Shown here piece after piece: positions 7,306-21,375 of a stretch of DNA of 64,000 nt. The notes below the pieces were generated by a model. That model ran no database searches, was not told where the DNA came from, and saw nothing but the letters and a program-made list of their open reading frames with translations. This stretch comes from Altererythrobacter sp. C41 (GTDB lineage: Bacteria; Pseudomonadota; Alphaproteobacteria; Sphingomonadales; Sphingomonadaceae). The position numbers and the translations under genes are program-made. How positions within the stretch are numbered: position 1 is the first letter of the stretch; each line of letters begins with the position of its first letter. The stretch spans positions 136,501-200,500 of the forward strand of contig NZ_JAEVFE010000004.1 in assembly GCF_016803135.1 (NCBI RefSeq), in the 5' to 3' direction.

Positions 7306-8066
7306 TGGACAAGATCGAACAATTCCGGGCTCTTCATATTCCGGGCGATCCGCTGGTGCTGTTCAATATCTGGGACGCCGGTTCCGCGCGCGTGGTCGCG
7401 GAAGCGGGTGCGCAGGCGATCGCCACCGGCAGCTACGGCGTGGCCGAGGCGCATGGCTTGCACGACGGCGAGACCGTCCCGCTCGACCTCGTACTTGCGA
7501 ACCTGGAACGGATCGTCTCGGTCACCGGCCTTCCGGTCTCGATCGACATGGAGTCGGGCTACGGCGATACGCCGGACGAAGTCGCGGCGTCGGTCGGGCG
7601 CGCGCGCGACGCGGGCGCGGCGGGAATCAATATGGAGGACCGGAGGCCGGGCGAAGCCCCACTGGTGCCGCTCGCCGAGCAGGCCGAGCGCGTCGCCGCA
7701 GCCGCCTCGACCGGCGTGTTCGTCAACGCGCGCTGCGACGTGTTCCGCGGCCGGGACGCGTCGGCGGAGGGCAAGGCGCTGGTCGCCGAGGCGCTCGAAC
7801 GCGCGCGCGCCTATGCCGACGCTGGAGCAGGTGGGCTGTTCGTTCCCTTCCTCGCCGACGCCGAGTGCATCGCTGCAATCTGTGAAGACTCGCCCCTTCC
7901 GGTAAACATCCTCTGGTCCCCCGCCTGCGGCGACCGCGCCGCCCTTGCCGCGCTCGGCGTCAGCCGCATCAGCCACGGCCACCAACCCTGGGCCGCCGCC
8001 ATGGCCATGCTGGGCCGCGAGGCAGAGACCGTGCTCGGAGGTGGAGTGCCGGTTTACGCCGGCTAG
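7302..8066 (+). CDS. isocitrate lyase/PEP mutase superfamily protein
   Basis: This is a 254-residue TIM-barrel protein of the PEP mutase/isocitrate lyase superfamily. Visible features are FNIWDAGSARVVAEAG, the metal-binding stretch SIDMESGYG, and NMEDRRPG. The KKCGH motif of true isocitrate lyases is absent, so the family closest by eye is the small carboxy-phosphonoenolpyruvate or 2-methylisocitrate lyase-like group that is often poorly characterised. It begins inside the ada stop codon, so translation is probably coupled. Such genes are common beside alkylation-repair genes in alphaproteobacteria, but a reason is not established. The exact substrate cannot be told from sequence alone. Confidence 0.85.
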   Translation: MMDKIEQFRALHIPGDPLVLFNIWDAGSARVVAEAGAQAIATGSYGVAEAHGLHDGETVPLDLVLANLERIVSVTGLPVSIDMESGYGDTPDEVAASVGRARDAGAAGINMEDRRPGEAPLVPLAEQAERVAAAASTGVFVNARCDVFRGRDASAEGKALVAEALERARAYADAGAGGLFVPFLADAECIAAICEDSPLPVNILWSPACGDRAALAALGVSRISHGHQPWAAAMAMLGREAETVLGGGVPVYAG

Positions 8067-8118
8067 CGCCTGTTCGCGGCGGATGTTCCCCGTCAGCCGG
8101 GATCTGTCGGCCATCGTC

Positions 8119-8159
8119 GGCGGAGCGGGCGACGCAGATAACTCGCGCCACGCTCCGCC
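8119..8159 (+). terminator. possible intrinsic terminator in a convergent gap
   Basis: A perfect nine-base inverted repeat, GGCGGAGCG at 8119-8127 and CGCTCCGCC at 8151-8159, sits between the converging PEP mutase-like gene and the HExxH/TPR gene. A T-rich tract (ATTATTTCCCTTT) follows on the plus strand. The 23-base loop is long for an intrinsic terminator, so the call is tentative. Confidence 0.35.
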
Positions 8160-8167
8160 CAGGCACA

Positions 8168-9730
8168 TTATTTCCCTTTCCTGACCTCGCTCTCCTCTCC
8201 ATCCTCTTTCGGTTCGAGGCTTGGTGCGAGTTCGCTGATCGCTTCAGCCGTATCGCCCTGCTCGATCTTCTCGGCGAGGTCCCGCAACTTCTCGCCACGT
8301 TTCCCGGCATGCGGGTCGTTCATCAATGGGCCAAGCACGACGATTGCTTCGGCATTGCGCCCCTCGGTCAGTAGCAAATGTGCGAGGTTCGTCCTGATGT
8401 CCGACGCGAAGGGCGCGTGATCGTACGCTTGCTCAAGAGCGATCAAGGCATTTTCAGGCGGGGTTTCACCGGCGAGGCGGTACGTGAGATAGTATCCGTT
8501 CAACGGAACGGGATTTGACGGTTCCAGGCGGTTCGCCTTCGCAAATTCCTGACGGGCGATCAGGAATTGTGAGGGATCATCCTTCGCACGGCGCATGGCA
8601 ATCTTTGCGAGATAGATGTGGGCGCGTGCGGCCGAATCGTCGATTGTCAGTATTTTCCGCGCCAAGGCTTCAGCACGATCGTCGTTTTCCGCGTCGAACT
8701 CGGCCTCCATTGCAGCCAGAAGAACCGGTTCGCTGTTCGGATACCGCTCGGTCAAAGCGCGAGCATCGGGAACAAGCCTTTTTGCTTCATCTTCATCAAC
8801 GCCACGACTGGAGGTGATGTGCAACATCATCCTCCCTGTCTCCGCTTCGCTCAGAGGGCGAACCTCGGCGTCCGGGGGCCGATAGTCCGGGAATGTGACC
8901 TCGATACCTTGCACGCGTCCGCGCCGGTACTTGTCCAGATCGCGGTTTAACCTGTCTAGATCGCCGAACGCTTCTTCAGCAGCTTCCCTCGAAGTCTTGC
9001 CGGCGTTGATGAGATCGAGATACTTGCCGAGTTGACCTTGCCGTTCCTGGCTAAAGGTCAGGTAGTGCGAGAGCAGCCACCCCATGGCGTAGATCTGCGC
9101 TCCATCACGATACGTCATCTTTTCCGGCGGATCGAGCAGGCGGGAAACGGGATAGCTGTTCAGGTGATGCAGCACCGCGGCGCGATGTTTCGCAGGGTTT
9201 CCGATCCTGAAGCCGCCGTCGGTAAGTTCGACGGTACCATAAACTTCGGCGAAGCCTTCCCTGTACCAGGCCGGATAAGCAGCTGCAGCATGCTGATACA
9301 TGAAATAGTGTGCGTACTCGTGGAACAGTACGGTTTTGGCATCCAAGGCGCCATCCTGATCGGGCCTTGCTCCGAGGCCTCTATCGCGTGCCTCTCGCGC
9401 GGGAACGAACGCTACCGATTGTCCTGCGCGAGGGATGAAGAAACCCGCCACTCCTCGCGCGCCGGCAAGCCGACCGATGTCGTTGACATCGCCGAATTGG
9501 TAGACCGTGAGTTTCGCCGATTCCGCAAGAGGCTCCGCATCTTTTGCGATCCCCCGCAGATAACGCATCGCTTCGTCGAACCGTTCGAGTTCAACGGCAA
9601 ACTGCTCCGCTTCCTCTTCGGAGGTTTCGGAATAAACGATGAAGTGATCGGTGCTCGCTCTCCACCAATCTGCGGCTGCTGCCGGCGTAGCGATCAAGGC
9701 CAGCGCCGCAGTGGCTAATAAAAAACGCAT
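8168..9730 (-). CDS. secreted HExxH metallopeptidase-like protein with TPR region (paralog 1)
   Basis: The 520-residue protein has a signal peptide (about 1-20). The putative zinc site HEYAH is at 137-141, followed by YREGFAEVYG with Glu158 and Glu162 as candidate third ligands, as in the peptidase MA-like families. The C-terminal half (about 300-500) is alpha-helical with TPR-like repeats. It is probably periplasmic or secreted. It is a clear paralog of the protein at 56219-57787: same length, same N-terminal motif FxVYxxxxxE, same VAGFxIPRAG block, same HEYAH site and same LSHYLTFSxER-type block. The substrate is unknown. Its codon use has more A and T in places than its neighbours, which may indicate a less constrained gene. 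Confidence 0.8.
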   Translation of the reverse strand: MRFLLATAALALIATPAAAADWWRASTDHFIVYSETSEEEAEQFAVELERFDEAMRYLRGIAKDAEPLAESAKLTVYQFGDVNDIGRLAGARGVAGFFIPRAGQSVAFVPAREARDRGLGARPDQDGALDAKTVLFHEYAHYFMYQHAAAAYPAWYREGFAEVYGTVELTDGGFRIGNPAKHRAAVLHHLNSYPVSRLLDPPEKMTYRDGAQIYAMGWLLSHYLTFSQERQGQLGKYLDLINAGKTSREAAEEAFGDLDRLNRDLDKYRRGRVQGIEVTFPDYRPPDAEVRPLSEAETGRMMLHITSSRGVDEDEAKRLVPDARALTERYPNSEPVLLAAMEAEFDAENDDRAEALARKILTIDDSAARAHIYLAKIAMRRAKDDPSQFLIARQEFAKANRLEPSNPVPLNGYYLTYRLAGETPPENALIALEQAYDHAPFASDIRTNLAHLLLTEGRNAEAIVVLGPLMNDPHAGKRGEKLRDLAEKIEQGDTAEAISELAPSLEPKEDGEESEVRKGK

Positions 9731-9846
9731 TTTGCCATTCCCCCAAACAGTGAGATCCGTTGCACGCTATCGCGGCGGTTTAATCCCGACGCTCAAGAGA
9801 CCGACGGCTAATTCCGGTGTCAAGTTTCTGAACAACGGCTTTCCAC

Positions 9847-12012
9847 CTACACAAAGCTGTACGGATCGACGTCCACGCTCACCCGCACGCCGCGGGGGAA
9901 GTCGAGGGCGCCGAGCCATTGGCGGATCACATCCTGCACCTGCGCGCTGCGGCGGGCGTTGATGAGCAGCCGGTAGCGGTAGCGGCCTCGTAGTAGGGAG
10001 AGCGGGGCGGCGGCCGGGCCGAGAATGGCGATGTCGGGGTGATCCGGGCGCGTGCCGCCGATCGCGCGGGCGGCTTCCTTCGCCTCGGCTTCGTCCTCGC
10101 TCGAGACGATGATCGCGGCCCAGCGGCCGAAGGGCGGGGCGCCGGCGTGGCGGCGGGCCTCCGTTTCGGCGGCATAGAAGGCGTCACGATCGCCGGCTGC
10201 CAGCGCGGCGATCACCGCGGCTTCGGGATGGCGCGTCTGGATCAGGACTTGTCCCGGCTTGTCCCCGCGACCGGCGCGGCCGGCGACTTGCGCGATCTGC
10301 TGATATGTGCGCTCCGCCGCGCGCAAGTCGCCGCCTTCGAGGCCGAGGTCGGCATCGACCACGCCGACCAGTGTCAGCTCGGGAAAGTGAAAGCCCTTGG
10401 TCACGAGCTGGGTGCCGACGATCACGTCGATCGCCCCCGCTTCGACTTGCGAGACGAATTCCGCCGCTTTCTCCGGCGAATTGAGCGTATCGCTGGTCGC
10501 GACCGCCACGCGTGCTTCGGGCAGAATCTCGGCCACTTCGTCCGCAATCCGCTCGACGCCGGGCCCGCAGGCGACCAGGCAATCGGGCTCGCCGCATTCG
10601 GGGCAGGTCGCCGGCGGCGGTGTCTCGTGTCCGCAGTGATGGCAGGCAAGCCGGCGGCTGAAACGATGCTCGACCAGCCACGCGGTACAGTTGGGGCACT
10701 GGAAGCGGAAGCCGCAATTGCGGCACAGCGTCAGCGGGGCATAGCCGCGCCGGTTGAGGAACAGCAGCGACTGCTCGCCGCGTTCCAGCCGCACCGACAG
10801 TTCCTGCGCCAGCCGCGGCGCCAGCCAGCGGCCGCGTTCGGGCGGTTCTTCGGTAAGGTCGATCGTCTCGATCGCCGGCAGTTCCGCCGCGCCGAACCGG
10901 CTGGGCAGTTCGAGCCGTTCGTACGTGCCGTTGTCCGCCATCTGGAGGCTTTCGAGCGCGGGGGTCGCACTGGCGAGGATCACCGGCAGCGCTTCGAACC
11001 GCGCGCGCATCACGGCCACATCGCGCGCGTTGTAGCGCACGCCGTCGTCCTGTTTGAAGCTGATCTCGTGCGCTTCGTCGATCACGATCAGGCCGAGGTT
11101 CGCGTACGGCAGGAACAGCGCCGAGCGCGCGCCCACGACGACTTGCGCTTCACCGCTCGCGATCGCTCTCCATGCGCGCCGCCGCTCGGTCGATTTCAGG
11201 GACGAATGCCAGACGACCGGCGGCACGCCGAAACGGTCCTCGAACCGGCGCAGGAACGCCTCGGTCAGCGCGATCTCGGGCAGCAGGACGAGCACCTGTC
11301 GGCGCGCGCGCAGCGCGGCGGCGACGGGTTCGAAATAGGTCTCGGTCTTGCCCGAGCCGGTCACGCCGTCGAGAAGGAAGGGCACGAAACGGCGCGCTTC
11401 GACGGCTTCGACCAGCCGCGCGGCGACCGTGCGCTGATCCGCCGTCAGCTCGGGCTGGGCATGGTCGGGATCGCCACGCGGGTAGGGACGGTCGCAATCG
11501 ACGGCGACCGGTTCGAGCACGCCCTGGTTGACGAGGCCGCGCAGCACGCCTTCGGACACGCCGGCCAGTTCGGCCAGCTCACGGATCGTCGCCTGCTCGC
11601 CTTCGAGTAGCTCCATCGCGCGTTCGCGCTGCGGCGTCATCCGCTCCGGCATGCCGCCGGTCAGGCGGTACTCGGTCACCGTCGCGGGGCCCCGCAGCGC
11701 GCCGCCGCTGGCGATCACCATGCGGGCGACGGAGGAGAGCGGCGCGCAGTAGTAGTCCGCCGTCCACTCGATCAGCCGGCGCAGCGCGGGCCTGAGCGGC
11801 GGGACGGGCAGCACCTCGATCAGCGGACGGAGCCGGGAATCGGGAACGGAATTGGCGGGCAGGCGCTCCTCGTCCCACACGATACCGACGATCTGGCGCG
11901 GGCCGAGCGGAGCGACTACGACCGATCCGGGCTCGACCGCCATCCCGGCCGGAACCGAATAGTCGAGCGCGCCGAGCGCGGCGTTGAAGACGAGGAGACG
12001 GACGCGGTTCAT
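9847..12012 (-). CDS. priA: primosomal protein N' (replication restart helicase)
   Basis: PriA recognises stalled forks, unwinds DNA 3' to 5' and reloads the replisome. The 721-residue protein has the N-terminal DNA-binding region, Walker A GVTGSGKT at 216-223, and the DEAH box at 312-315. Eight zinc-binding cysteines are at 430, 433, 439, 442, 457, 460, 470 and 473. The ATG at 12012 gives [10 protein letters not shown]. It is transcribed divergently from fsa across 155 bases that contain a short repeat (CCCCTTCGCAGGGG at about 12090-12103). Confidence 0.97.
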
Positions 12013-14756: not shown

Positions 14757-14785
14757 TTGGTCGATCATACTTCGTGTGATATTGT
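14757..14785 (+). promoter_or_regulatory. putative parDE promoter with embedded operator palindrome
   Basis: A -35-like TTGGTC (14757-14762) and a -10-like TATTGT (14780-14785) are exactly 17 bases apart, just after the cobT stop. The spacer holds the near-palindrome ATCATACTTCGTGTGAT (14764-14780), a plausible ribbon-helix-helix operator. The predicted transcript start (about 14792) falls next to the parD ATG at 14793, and no ribosome binding site is seen, so the message may be leaderless. Confidence 0.4.
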
Positions 14786-14792
14786 ATGCGGC

Positions 14793-15077
14793 ATGGGAAA
14801 ACTCGAACGCATCACTGTGACCATGCCTGAGGAAATGGCCGCCAGGCTGCGCGCGGCGGTGGATTCGGGTGCTTACGCCACCACCAGCGAGATCGTGCGC
14901 GAGGCCTTGCGTGACTGGAGCGACGATCAGGATCGTAAAGAAGCCGCAGTGGAGCGGCTTCGCGTGATGGTCGAAGAGGCAAGAGCCGGCCCGAGCTATC
15001 CTGCCGAGGAGGTTTTTGCCGAGATTCGTGCTCTGGTGGCTGAGCAGGCGGCTAAGTATCGAGCCGAAGGTCAGTGA
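14793..15077 (+). CDS. parD: ParD-type antitoxin (CopG/RHH family)
   Basis: This 94-residue protein has an N-terminal ribbon-helix-helix domain (LERITVTMPEEMAARLRAAV, then TSEIVREALRDW), which binds the operon promoter. A charged C-terminal half normally wraps around and neutralises the ParE toxin. The ATG at 14793 is chosen because the family starts with GKLERITV; an earlier in-frame start would overlap the promoter. Its stop overlaps the parE start by four bases (GTGA). Type II antitoxins of this group typically repress their own promoter, and a palindrome sits in the predicted promoter spacer. Confidence 0.92.
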   Translation: MGKLERITVTMPEEMAARLRAAVDSGAYATTSEIVREALRDWSDDQDRKEAAVERLRVMVEEARAGPSYPAEEVFAEIRALVAEQAAKYRAEGQ

Positions 15078-15373
15078 GACGTTACGAGATTCGACAACAC
15101 GCGTGCGGCGATCTGCGCGACATTGCCATCTATATCGGCCAGGAGGATCCCGATCGTGCCGAGGCCTTCGTCGGTGAACTCCTCGCGAAGATCGAATGGA
15201 TCGCCGACAATCCCAAGCTCTATCGGCCGCGCTTCGAATGGGATCGCAACTTTCGGATTGCGCACCACGCGCGCTATTACATTCTCTACTATATCGAGGG
15301 TGACACCGTTGAAATCCTGCGCGTCGTCCATTCCTCGCGTGATCTCGCTGCATTGCTTGACGACCTAAAATGA
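15074..15373 (+). CDS. parE: ParE-type toxin (RelE/ParE superfamily)
   Basis: The 99-residue protein fits the ParE fold: LRDIAIYIGQEDPDRAEAFV, IADNPKLYRPRFEW, and the C-terminal IEGDTVEILRVVHSSRD carrying the usual Arg, His and Arg-Asp residues. ParE proteins of known activity poison DNA gyrase, while RelE relatives cut mRNA. The set here looks like ParE, but the target is inferred from family only. The start is GTG at 15074, overlapping the parD stop. The reading frame looks intact, with no frameshift. Unusually, its stop overlaps the ATG of a nitroreductase gene by four bases. Confidence 0.92.
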   Translation: MRRYEIRQHACGDLRDIAIYIGQEDPDRAEAFVGELLAKIEWIADNPKLYRPRFEWDRNFRIAHHARYYILYYIEGDTVEILRVVHSSRDLAALLDDLK

Positions 15374-20089: not shown

Positions 20090-20428
20090 TCATGCGTCCA
20101 CCAGCAGCAGGAGCTCGCACTCGACCGTCATTTGCGGTTGAGGCAGCAGGGTGTGATCGACCCGGGTGACGGTCGCGTCGGCGACGAGCTGACCGGGTAG
20201 GGCGAATTCGTGTTCGGGCAGGGTGGCAACGAAGTGCTCGCCCGCTGCGACGGCATCGGGGCCGTCGAAGCGCAGCGTCACCCGGTGGCGGGCGCCTTCG
20301 AAGGTCACGCTCGCCCAAGCCTTCTCGCGGTGCGTCACCACCGCGGCCTTGTTGCGGCCGAGATCGAGCAGCGCCGCGCGCAGCCGGTCGGCCGTGGTGC
20401 GACGGGGCGGGAGGGGATCACGCGGCAT
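20090..20428 (-). CDS. conserved hypothetical protein of the SOS-box operon
   Basis: The 112-residue protein has a basic N-terminus, then a mixed region with RHRVTLRFDGPDAVAAGEHF and LVADATVTRVDHTLLP. It looks like a small all-beta cytoplasmic domain with no signal or membrane segment. I do not recognise a named family. The ATG at 20428 overlaps the end of the upstream 65-residue HTH gene by 11 bases, so the two are almost certainly cotranslated. An SOS-type box lies 43 bases upstream of that first gene. Confidence 0.72.
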   Translation of the reverse strand: MPRDPLPPRRTTADRLRAALLDLGRNKAAVVTHREKAWASVTFEGARHRVTLRFDGPDAVAAGEHFVATLPEHEFALPGQLVADATVTRVDHTLLPQPQMTVECELLLLVDA

Positions 20429-20615
20429 GGGCAGTCTCCAGCGCGGCCTGGTAACCGGCCATGAAGGCACGGATGCGCGCCTCGGTGTCGGCGCGCGGTT
20501 CACGGCCGTTTCTCAGATCGAACACAAAGCGCGGGTCCTGCACCGCAAGGCGGCCGAACTTGGTCGCGGCGATGTCGTGCGCTCGGAGGAATTTCTCGAT
20601 GGATCGGATCAGCAT
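20418..20615 (-). CDS. minimal helix-turn-helix protein, first gene of the SOS-box operon
   Basis: This 65-residue protein is essentially one degenerate XRE-like helix-turn-helix: FLRAHDIAATKFGRLAVQDP, then RFVFDLRNGREPRADT, then a closing helix. Small proteins of this look (FGR.AV.D..FV..LR.G) are seen in sphingomonads, usually without function. The ATG at 20615 has GGGGAGAGCC upstream, a strong ribosome binding site. It is divergent from the S24 repressor gene across 118 bases that contain a GTTC-N7-GTTC box. A DNA-binding role is inferred from the fold pattern. Confidence 0.75.
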   Translation of the reverse strand: MLIRSIEKFLRAHDIAATKFGRLAVQDPRFVFDLRNGREPRADTEARIRAFMAGYQAALETAHAA

Positions 20616-20657
20616 GGCTCTCCCCGACGGATGGTGATGGGCGACTCGGAACTATGT

Positions 20658-20672
20658 GTTCCCGATTCGTTC
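20658..20672. promoter_or_regulatory. alphaproteobacterial SOS (LexA) box
   Basis: The sequence is a perfect GTTC-N7-GTTC direct repeat, the established LexA operator form in Caulobacter, Rhodobacter and Sinorhizobium. It lies 43 bases upstream of the small HTH gene and 62 bases upstream of the S24 repressor gene. One or two chance matches are expected per 64 kb, but this one is centred in a divergent regulatory gap next to a LexA-like gene. Confidence 0.6.
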
Positions 20673-20687
20673 CACCTGAAATCCTAC

Positions 20688-20724
20688 TTGTCTAGGAAAA
20701 ATACATCGTCTATACGGGAAAAAT
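20688..20724 (+). promoter_or_regulatory. S24 repressor promoter with overlapping direct-repeat operator
   Basis: TTGTCT (20688-20693) and TATACG (20711-20716) are 17 bases apart and form a good -35/-10 pair, with an expected start near 20723. Two copies of GTCTA followed by GGGAAAAAT or GGAAAAAT (20690-20702 and 20708-20724) overlap the -35 and the -10. Binding of a repressor there would block transcription, so autoregulation by the S24 protein is a fair inference. Confidence 0.5.
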
Positions 20725-20733
20725 GTTACAGGT

Positions 20734-21375
20734 ATGGATCCCGTCATGACGGACGCGCGCCAGCGCCTGATCGAACTGGCCCGGGAGCGTGGGGCGAGCC
20801 TTGCCGGGCTGTCGCAGCTCATCGGTCGTAACCCCACGTATCTTCAGCAATTTGTCCGCAAGGGAAGCCCGCGGAAGCTGGAGGAGGAGGATCGGCGGAC
20901 GCTTGCCGAGTTCTTCGGCGTCGCCGAATCGGAGCTTGGCGCACCGGCGGATAAATCCTATGCCGGTCCGCTGGTGGATTGGGTCGAGGTGCCGCGCCTT
21001 TCGCTCGACGCCTCCGCAGGGCCGGGGGCGCTCGGCGCGCAGGAAATTCCCTTCGACACCTTCCGTTTCTCGCCCCGCTGGCTGCGCGAAATGGGGCTCG
21101 AGGGTGCCGACCTTACCGCGATCCGGGTCGAGGGCGATTCGATGGAGCCGGACCTGCGCAGCGGCGACGAGATCTTCGTCGACCGCAACAAGCGCGGGCA
21201 CGAGGGCATCCATGTGGTCCGCATCGGGGACGCGCTCCACGTCAAGCAGCTCCAGGTCAGCGCCCCGGGCCGCATCGCCCTCATCAGTCTGAACAAGGCC
21301 TACGCCCCGATCGACCTCGCCCGCGACGAAGTCGAGGTGATCGGCCGCGTGGTGTGGAAAGGCGGGCGGGTCTGA
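20734..21375 (+). CDS. LexA-like transcriptional repressor with S24 peptidase domain
   Basis: The 213-residue protein joins an N-terminal helix-turn-helix (about 20-62, ASLAGLSQLIGRNPTYLQQFV) to a C-terminal S24 domain. The nucleophile Ser136 sits in VEGDSMEPDL and the general-base Lys171 in LHVKQL. A candidate Ala-Gly cleavage site is at 95-96, before the S24 core, as in LexA and phage CI. It is not LexA itself: the HTH is XRE-like rather than winged. The ATG at 20734 or a second at 20746 could start it, and neither has a strong ribosome binding site. The SOS box and operator repeats upstream suggest control by DNA damage or by itself. Confidence 0.85.
   Translation: MDPVMTDARQRLIELARERGASLAGLSQLIGRNPTYLQQFVRKGSPRKLEEEDRRTLAEFFGVAESELGAPADKSYAGPLVDWVEVPRLSLDASAGPGALGAQEIPFDTFRFSPRWLREMGLEGADLTAIRVEGDSMEPDLRSGDEIFVDRNKRGHEGIHVVRIGDALHVKQLQVSAPGRIALISLNKAYAPIDLARDEVEVIGRVVWKGGRV

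Follow-up and report, generated by a model that had tools for sequence, protein, structure and literature searches.

A group of three genes in Altererythrobacter sp. C41 is probably, to judge from its sequence, a domesticated phage immunity switch of the CI/Cro type to which a LexA layer has been added. The genes lie on contig C4 of a 3.2-Mb genome assembled in 30 contigs, within a stretch of 64,000 nucleotides that was analysed as a whole and is referred to below as the window. One gene codes for a repressor with an S24 peptidase domain (S24); it faces a leftward pair coding for a 65-residue protein (H65) and a partner (PAR). The features are as follows, in window positions.

PAR, 20090–20428, minus strand: starts with ATG, 112 aa; second gene of the leftward pair; solitary tail-terminator-like protein
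H65, 20418–20615, minus strand: starts with ATG, 65 aa; four-helix protein in the Cro position
GTTC-N7-GTTC box, GTTCCCGATTCGTTC, 20658–20672, plus strand: LexA-operator form; 42 bases from the H65 start codon
Palindrome, TCCTACTTGTCTAGGA, 20682–20697, no strand: likely S24 operator
Candidate S24 promoter, TTGTCT-17 bases-TATACG, 20688–20716, plus strand: picked by eye; overlaps the palindrome
S24, 20746–21375, plus strand: HTH and LexA/CI-type peptidase repressor; alternative start at 20734

PAR and H65 overlap by 11 bases (20418–20428). For S24, the start at 20734 gives 213 aa and a gap of 118 bases, and the in-frame ATG at 20746 gives 209 aa. When the sequence was re-read, the exact box, the 65-aa HTH gene, its overlapping partner and the divergent S24 gene were all found where an earlier note on this DNA had placed them, and Ala95-Gly96, Ser136 and Lys171 had been placed correctly as well (in the numbering of the 213-aa S24). 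The palindrome had been overlooked, as had what the partner gene is likely to be. Elsewhere in the window, at 14757–15373, there are two overlapping small genes, which we take to resemble a CopG/ParD-type antitoxin and a RelE/ParE-type toxin.

Conservation of the Module

Conservation was assessed in 147 genomes drawn evenly from the order, 64 of them from the family of the source organism. S24 relatives occur in 102 of the 147 genomes and H65 in 62; 61 of these 62 are among the 64 same-family genomes, and the family members without H65 are G094, G103 and G133. In 71 of the 72 fetched loci that contain both genes, S24 and H65 are divergent and at most 400 bases apart, with gaps of 89–194 bases. 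These 71 gaps (70 from the same family and one, L113, from another, with some genomes contributing more than one locus) are made up of 60 gaps of the main module and 11 of a clade without PAR. Outside the set are L085, in which H65 lies 2,867 bases from S24, and L094, L111, L112 and L114–L128, which are without H65 or S24.

PAR was detected by tblastn in 56 of the 60 main-module loci. As for the other four, a PAR-like ORF can be recognised by eye in L100 and L109, the record of L088 stops shortly past H65, and L113 holds a different gene. The earlier note had proposed synteny as a check, and on these two counts, 71 of 72 for the divergent pairs and 56 of 60 for PAR, the three genes are conserved together. 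We also used 80 named loci, mostly from Erythrobacter, Qipengyuania and their relatives; they are the best 80 of 348, near relatives are over-represented in them, and some come from the same genomes as the G handles. Among these best 80 of 348, S24 is divergent in 78 and PAR is present in all 80.

The LexA-Form Box, Where Present, Occupies One of Two Sites

The sequence GTTCCCGATTCGTTC is the sole exact GTTC-N7-GTTC match in the 64-kb window, where shuffling predicts 1.6. Since 1.6 matches per 64 kb can be expected by chance, the real test of the box is its position and conservation, not its presence. An exact box was found in 40 of the 71 S24-H65 gaps, compared to 0.30 expected from dinucleotide shuffles. 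At 19 other loci, an identical 15-mer of the box form, GAACATTTCATGAAC, is located within H65 codons 49–53 and thus upstream of PAR. The gap box and the in-gene 15-mer were never found together (0 of 71), and 12 of the 71 loci have neither. In the main module (n = 60), there are 29 gap boxes, 19 in-gene 15-mers and 12 loci with neither, and in the no-PAR clade all 11 gaps carry the box. The best 80 of 348 named loci include 49 with the gap box, 8 with the in-gene site, which ends 19–31 bases ahead of the PAR start, and 23 with neither; among these 23, 12 have GTTC-N7-GTTT at the gap position, and L171 has another one-mismatch form there. Conservation of the box in orthologous gaps, which the earlier note had proposed as a check, stands as a strong excess over chance and does not extend to the 12 of 71 loci and the 23 of 80 named loci with no exact box in either place.

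A quick tree of S24 sequences requires 13 changes of the box label; its well-supported branches demand at least three for the gap site and at least two for the in-gene site. The box has thus moved, or been lost and then regained, with an exact copy still upstream of PAR in 48 of the 60 main loci.

Of 119 family genomes, 32 carry the 15-mer GAACATTTCATGAAC, 31 of them in one copy and one in two copies; out of 33 places in total, 30 were read, and all 30 are within H65. Its invariance, and the fact that several provirus contigs start close to H65, led us to test it as an att core. This was not supported, as it is present in a single copy in 12 of 12 records. In addition, 10 far ends were checked for repeats shared with a stretch of up to 450 bases counted from the H65 start: in nine of them none reached 13 bases, and L153 had a single 13-base match. 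The box and the conserved residues would account for the invariance only in part, because the box places no constraint on the third position of the Phe codon: this codon is TTC in 19 of 19 copies, compared to 185 of 237 Phe codons elsewhere in the same genes.

In the genome as a whole, GTTC-N7-GTTC has 95 matches, versus 43 for the reversed control. Among 50 boxes whose context was read, several precede genes with matches to LexA, RecA, UvrA, RadA, a PcrA/UvrD-type helicase and a radical-SAM repair protein, identities that come from N-terminal pieces of 51–60 residues and are below curated cut-offs, with 3 of 10 pieces giving no match. The lexA box reads GTTCCGCATTCGTTC, which is close to GTTCCCGATTCGTTC of the window. 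The view of the earlier note that the box is of the LexA-operator form is thus supported within this genome, where the same pattern precedes lexA, recA, uvrA, radA and other repair-type genes. One mark of LexA-regulon membership, GTTC-N7-GTTC in the promoter region, is present in the module. LexA motifs with a GTTC consensus are also described for Dinoroseobacter in the available part of a published study (PMC6473078).

No exact box was found in the 11 S24 loci of other Sphingomonadales families. Such families, with S24 and a terminator and no box, and those members of the family itself that have none, would fit control of the pair by S24 alone, with the GTTC box not being a LexA operator here. 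We consider this improbable, given the occurrence of the box in 40 of 71 gaps versus 0.30 expected, the exclusive use of one of two sites and the same form of box in front of lexA and recA.

The S24 Repressor and Its Putative Operator

S24 matches Peptidase_S24 (1.3e-21) and the phage repressor family phrog_4 (7.3e-40). The window protein has the features of the self-cleaving class, namely the catalytic Ser and Lys and an Ala-Gly site. All 152 S24 sequences from the family retain Ser, Lys and Gly, and 151 of the 152 retain Ala; the set includes no-PAR paralogues, and some genomes are present in it twice. In 16 S24 proteins of other families, Ser and Lys are found in all 16, Ala in 14 and Gly in 13. 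A PADLOC search gave a weak capH match for S24 (E 0.022) and none for H65 or PAR.

The palindrome at 20682–20697 is likely the operator of S24. It is exact in 43 of the 60 main gaps and was found in 74 of the named loci (best 80 of 348). Half-sites TAGGAA/TTCCTA precede S24 in 9 of 11 other-family loci that have no detectable H65; since they are kept where H65 is absent, the predicted operator most likely belongs to S24. Within the genome, the palindrome is the sole site of the form TCCTA-N6-TAGGA, and TAGGA-N4-TCCTA has no sites; a wider S24 regulon was rejected on these two counts. A consensus scan of the gap returned no sigma-70-like promoter. In L113, L117, L120 and L123, all from other families, a different small gene is found near S24 on the divergent strand; its products share a C-terminal motif that ends in NGW or KGW.

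PAR Is Probably a Remote Relative of Tail Terminators

The AlphaFold model of PAR has a pLDDT of 93.2 and a pTM of 0.82. A Foldseek search of the PDB gave no matches at E 0.001 or better, the top one being 6tba_4A, a chain of a gene transfer agent (GTA) virion, at 1.5e-3. After realignment, 6tba_4A scored Z 10.8 (rmsd 2.8, 100 aligned), followed by Listeria antigen B (10.3), monocin cap (10.1) and phage NF5 neck (9.9). PilO (Z 8.9) and collagenase domains score Z 8 to 9 against PAR, so that 10.8 is only moderately higher and the fold alone is no proof. In BFVD, nine matches were found at E 0.001 or better: five to DUF3168/tail completion proteins, one to a minor head protein and three to unnamed proteins.

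At the level of sequence, PAR of the window has no match to the PF11367 profile and none among PDB sequences up to E 1, and when 32 PARs were scanned against PHROG and Pfam, matches were scattered and confined to single members. Proteins at the PAR position in the family come close to PF11367, with G053 just above the cut-off (24.8 versus 24.5 bits) and G105 just below it; the PAR-like protein of L100 has no match. In 9 of 11 loci from other families, PF11367 matches the gene that sits next to S24 in the place of PAR; L121 and L122 give no match there. When Pfam was applied to four S24-linked candidates from these families, L115, L116 and L123 matched PF11367 and L121 did not. Alignment of PAR with the S24-linked PF11367 proteins by hhalign gave a probability of 93.8% and E 1.7e-7 over 63 columns. 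Taken together, the model and the profiles indicate that PAR is a remote relative of phage and GTA tail terminators; we call it remote because the window protein on its own misses PF11367.

Relation of the Module to Gene Transfer Agents

The g15-like protein of G124 was used as a GTA marker, since GTA_TIM was found in 0 of 147 genomes and was therefore unusable. The number of marker-positive genomes, 47, is an upper figure, as weak or partial matches (e.g., G119, G065, G097, G141 and G144) may be prophage. H65 is kept in 14 of 17 marker-negative and 47 of 47 marker-positive family genomes (Fisher p 0.016, uncorrected for kinship). The three genomes without H65, two of which are in one genus, are all marker-negative. 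In all 14 marker-negative genomes that keep the module, PAR is present (13 by tblastn and G039 by eye).

The GTA cluster of the source genome looks decayed. Its remnant, on contig C6 (L350, about 7,600–11,900), has a partial portal match below the cut-off and a capsid-like fragment recognised by eye, and neither the g15-like marker nor a PF11367 match was found in this genome. The module, being on contig C4, is not within the GTA head-tail cluster. In G124, there is a GTA cluster with a PF11367 gene of its own (other cluster genes were named by eye) and PAR in addition; relocation from the GTA, with PAR replacing g8, is not supported for G124, which has both.

One could suppose that PAR is an extra tail terminator for the host GTA that is made under SOS control. 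The best solved match of PAR is a GTA virion chain, and the loss of H65 in 3 of 17 marker-negative versus 0 of 47 marker-positive genomes (the p value of 0.016 being uncorrected for kinship) points the same way. We nevertheless consider such an accessory role unlikely, since the module is kept with PAR in 14 of 17 marker-negative genomes, the GTA cluster looks decayed here, and in G124 a PF11367 gene within the GTA cluster coexists with PAR. Given its retention in marker-negative genomes and the state of the cluster in the source genome, PAR is probably more than just a component of the GTA; it outlives the GTA and may yet be not wholly unrelated to it. The words LexA and repressor are absent from the available part of a GTA cluster study that includes Sphingomonadales (PMC9836097), as are S24, LexA and tail terminator from that of a 2026 study of the Caulobacter GTA (PMC13236601).

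The S24-H65 Pair in Phages and Mobile Elements

The model of H65 has four helices (pLDDT 79.1), and Foldseek matched it to Cro/C1-type HTH chains, all with E above 3. Relatives of H65 occur in phage immunity-like regions, and S24 resembles phage repressors by family. In 14 of 38 viral contigs bearing H65, a relative of S24 is divergent from it. Six of the 14 were read (L135, L140, L145, L155, L159 and L161), and in each a CI-type gene is divergent from an H65-like gene with phage-type genes downstream (labels assigned by eye); no box was found in these six gaps. The module shows the layout expected of a CI/Cro switch, in which the repressor gene and a small HTH-type gene are transcribed away from each other and palindromic sites lie between them.

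The no-PAR clade (11 loci) is separate on the S24 tree with a support of 99. Flanks were read for five of its loci: L359 has TraC/TraG and L356 has TraG of F-type conjugation, L360 resembles L359, L358 has PglZ and DUF6079 (BREX-like) genes, and L357 has large genes without assignment. The S24-H65 pair thus appears to be a phage-type switch that occurs in at least three settings.

H65 relatives were also seen on four plasmid records, from Sphingomonas, Bradyrhizobium, Rhodovastum and Roseicitreum, and the HTH family therefore extends beyond Sphingomonadales. In L130, L132, L133, L138, L139, L153, L154 and L156, the end of a predicted provirus coincides with the S24-H65 pair or lies close to it, and in L133 and L153 phage-type genes directly follow H65. 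The pair is a possible integration hot spot, with no att repeat found.

The presence of a gene pair of the same kind in phages and the likeness of PAR to a virion protein would also be expected of a prophage immunity region left behind as a relic with no present function. We find this very improbable. H65 of the module is kept in 61 of 64 family genomes, the S24 residues are conserved, other families have a PF11367 gene at the corresponding position next to S24, and dN/dS is below 0.3 for all three genes (S24 0.065, H65 0.19 and PAR 0.28, from one pair, the window versus L167).

Proposed Mode of Action and Comparison with Known Systems

According to the reading that we favour, a domesticated CI/Cro-type switch with an added LexA layer, S24 would bind the palindrome and repress both its own gene and H65-PAR, LexA at the box would also keep H65-PAR down, and H65 would act on S24 in a Cro-like manner. 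Upon DNA damage, RecA would trigger self-cleavage of LexA and S24, and PAR would be produced. For the last step, which is the weakest one, we tentatively favour an effect of PAR on the assembly of tails of phage or GTA particles formed in damaged cells, as an interfering or an extra cap. Several observations stand against this reading: an exact box is missing from both places in 12 of 71 loci and in 23 of the 80 named loci, and it is missing from all 11 loci of other families and from the six phage gaps; PAR has no PF11367 match and a modest Z margin, and H65 matches have E above 3; a consensus scan found no sigma-70-like promoter in the gap, and just 43 of the 60 main gaps hold the palindrome in its exact form.

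More speculatively, at least four families of Sphingomonadales may keep a tamed lysogeny repressor with a solitary tail-terminator homologue as its dedicated output, tied to SOS in the family of the window, which would sabotage or cap phage or GTA tails under DNA damage and so form an anti-virion module built from phage parts; we regard this as rather unlikely. In the module itself, a phage-type immunity switch has become near-universal on the chromosomes of one bacterial family, where it is apparently tied to SOS and usually goes with one virion-like protein. It makes the use of a single phage assembly protein by a host directly testable and is a candidate for membership of the sphingomonad SOS regulon.

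The earlier note knew of no described system of this makeup. This does not hold for the arrangement, since a small HTH gene diverging from S24 makes it one of the CI/Cro type, which is found on phage contigs, and the partner is tail-terminator-like. A description of the S24-H65-PAR module was not found in the open-access literature searched; the kind is known, and both the combination and the cargo appear, within the reach of our searches, to be undescribed.

The lambda-type CI/Cro immunity switch is found in temperate phages. Like it, the module has a repressor gene of the self-cleaving S24 type and a small HTH gene that are transcribed away from each other, with palindromes in the intervening region. 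Unlike it, the module is chromosomal, near-universal in the family and equipped with an extra LexA-form box, and it carries a single tail-terminator-like cargo gene instead of lytic genes. PAR is similar to PF11367 tail completion/terminator proteins in its fold, with 6tba_4A as the nearest solved match, and through the 63-column profile match; it differs from them in being outside any virion gene cluster seen here and in having no direct match to the family profile. SetR of SXT/R391, as described in the available part of its report (PMC4542580), is a 215-aa repressor with HTH and S24 domains and a predicted Cro-like gene on the opposing transcript, and its repression is relieved via RecA-mediated self-cleavage. 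The module shares with it the HTH and S24 repressor opposite a gene predicted to be Cro-like; SetR, on that account, governs conjugation, whereas here transfer genes, of the F type, are seen only beside the separate no-PAR clade.
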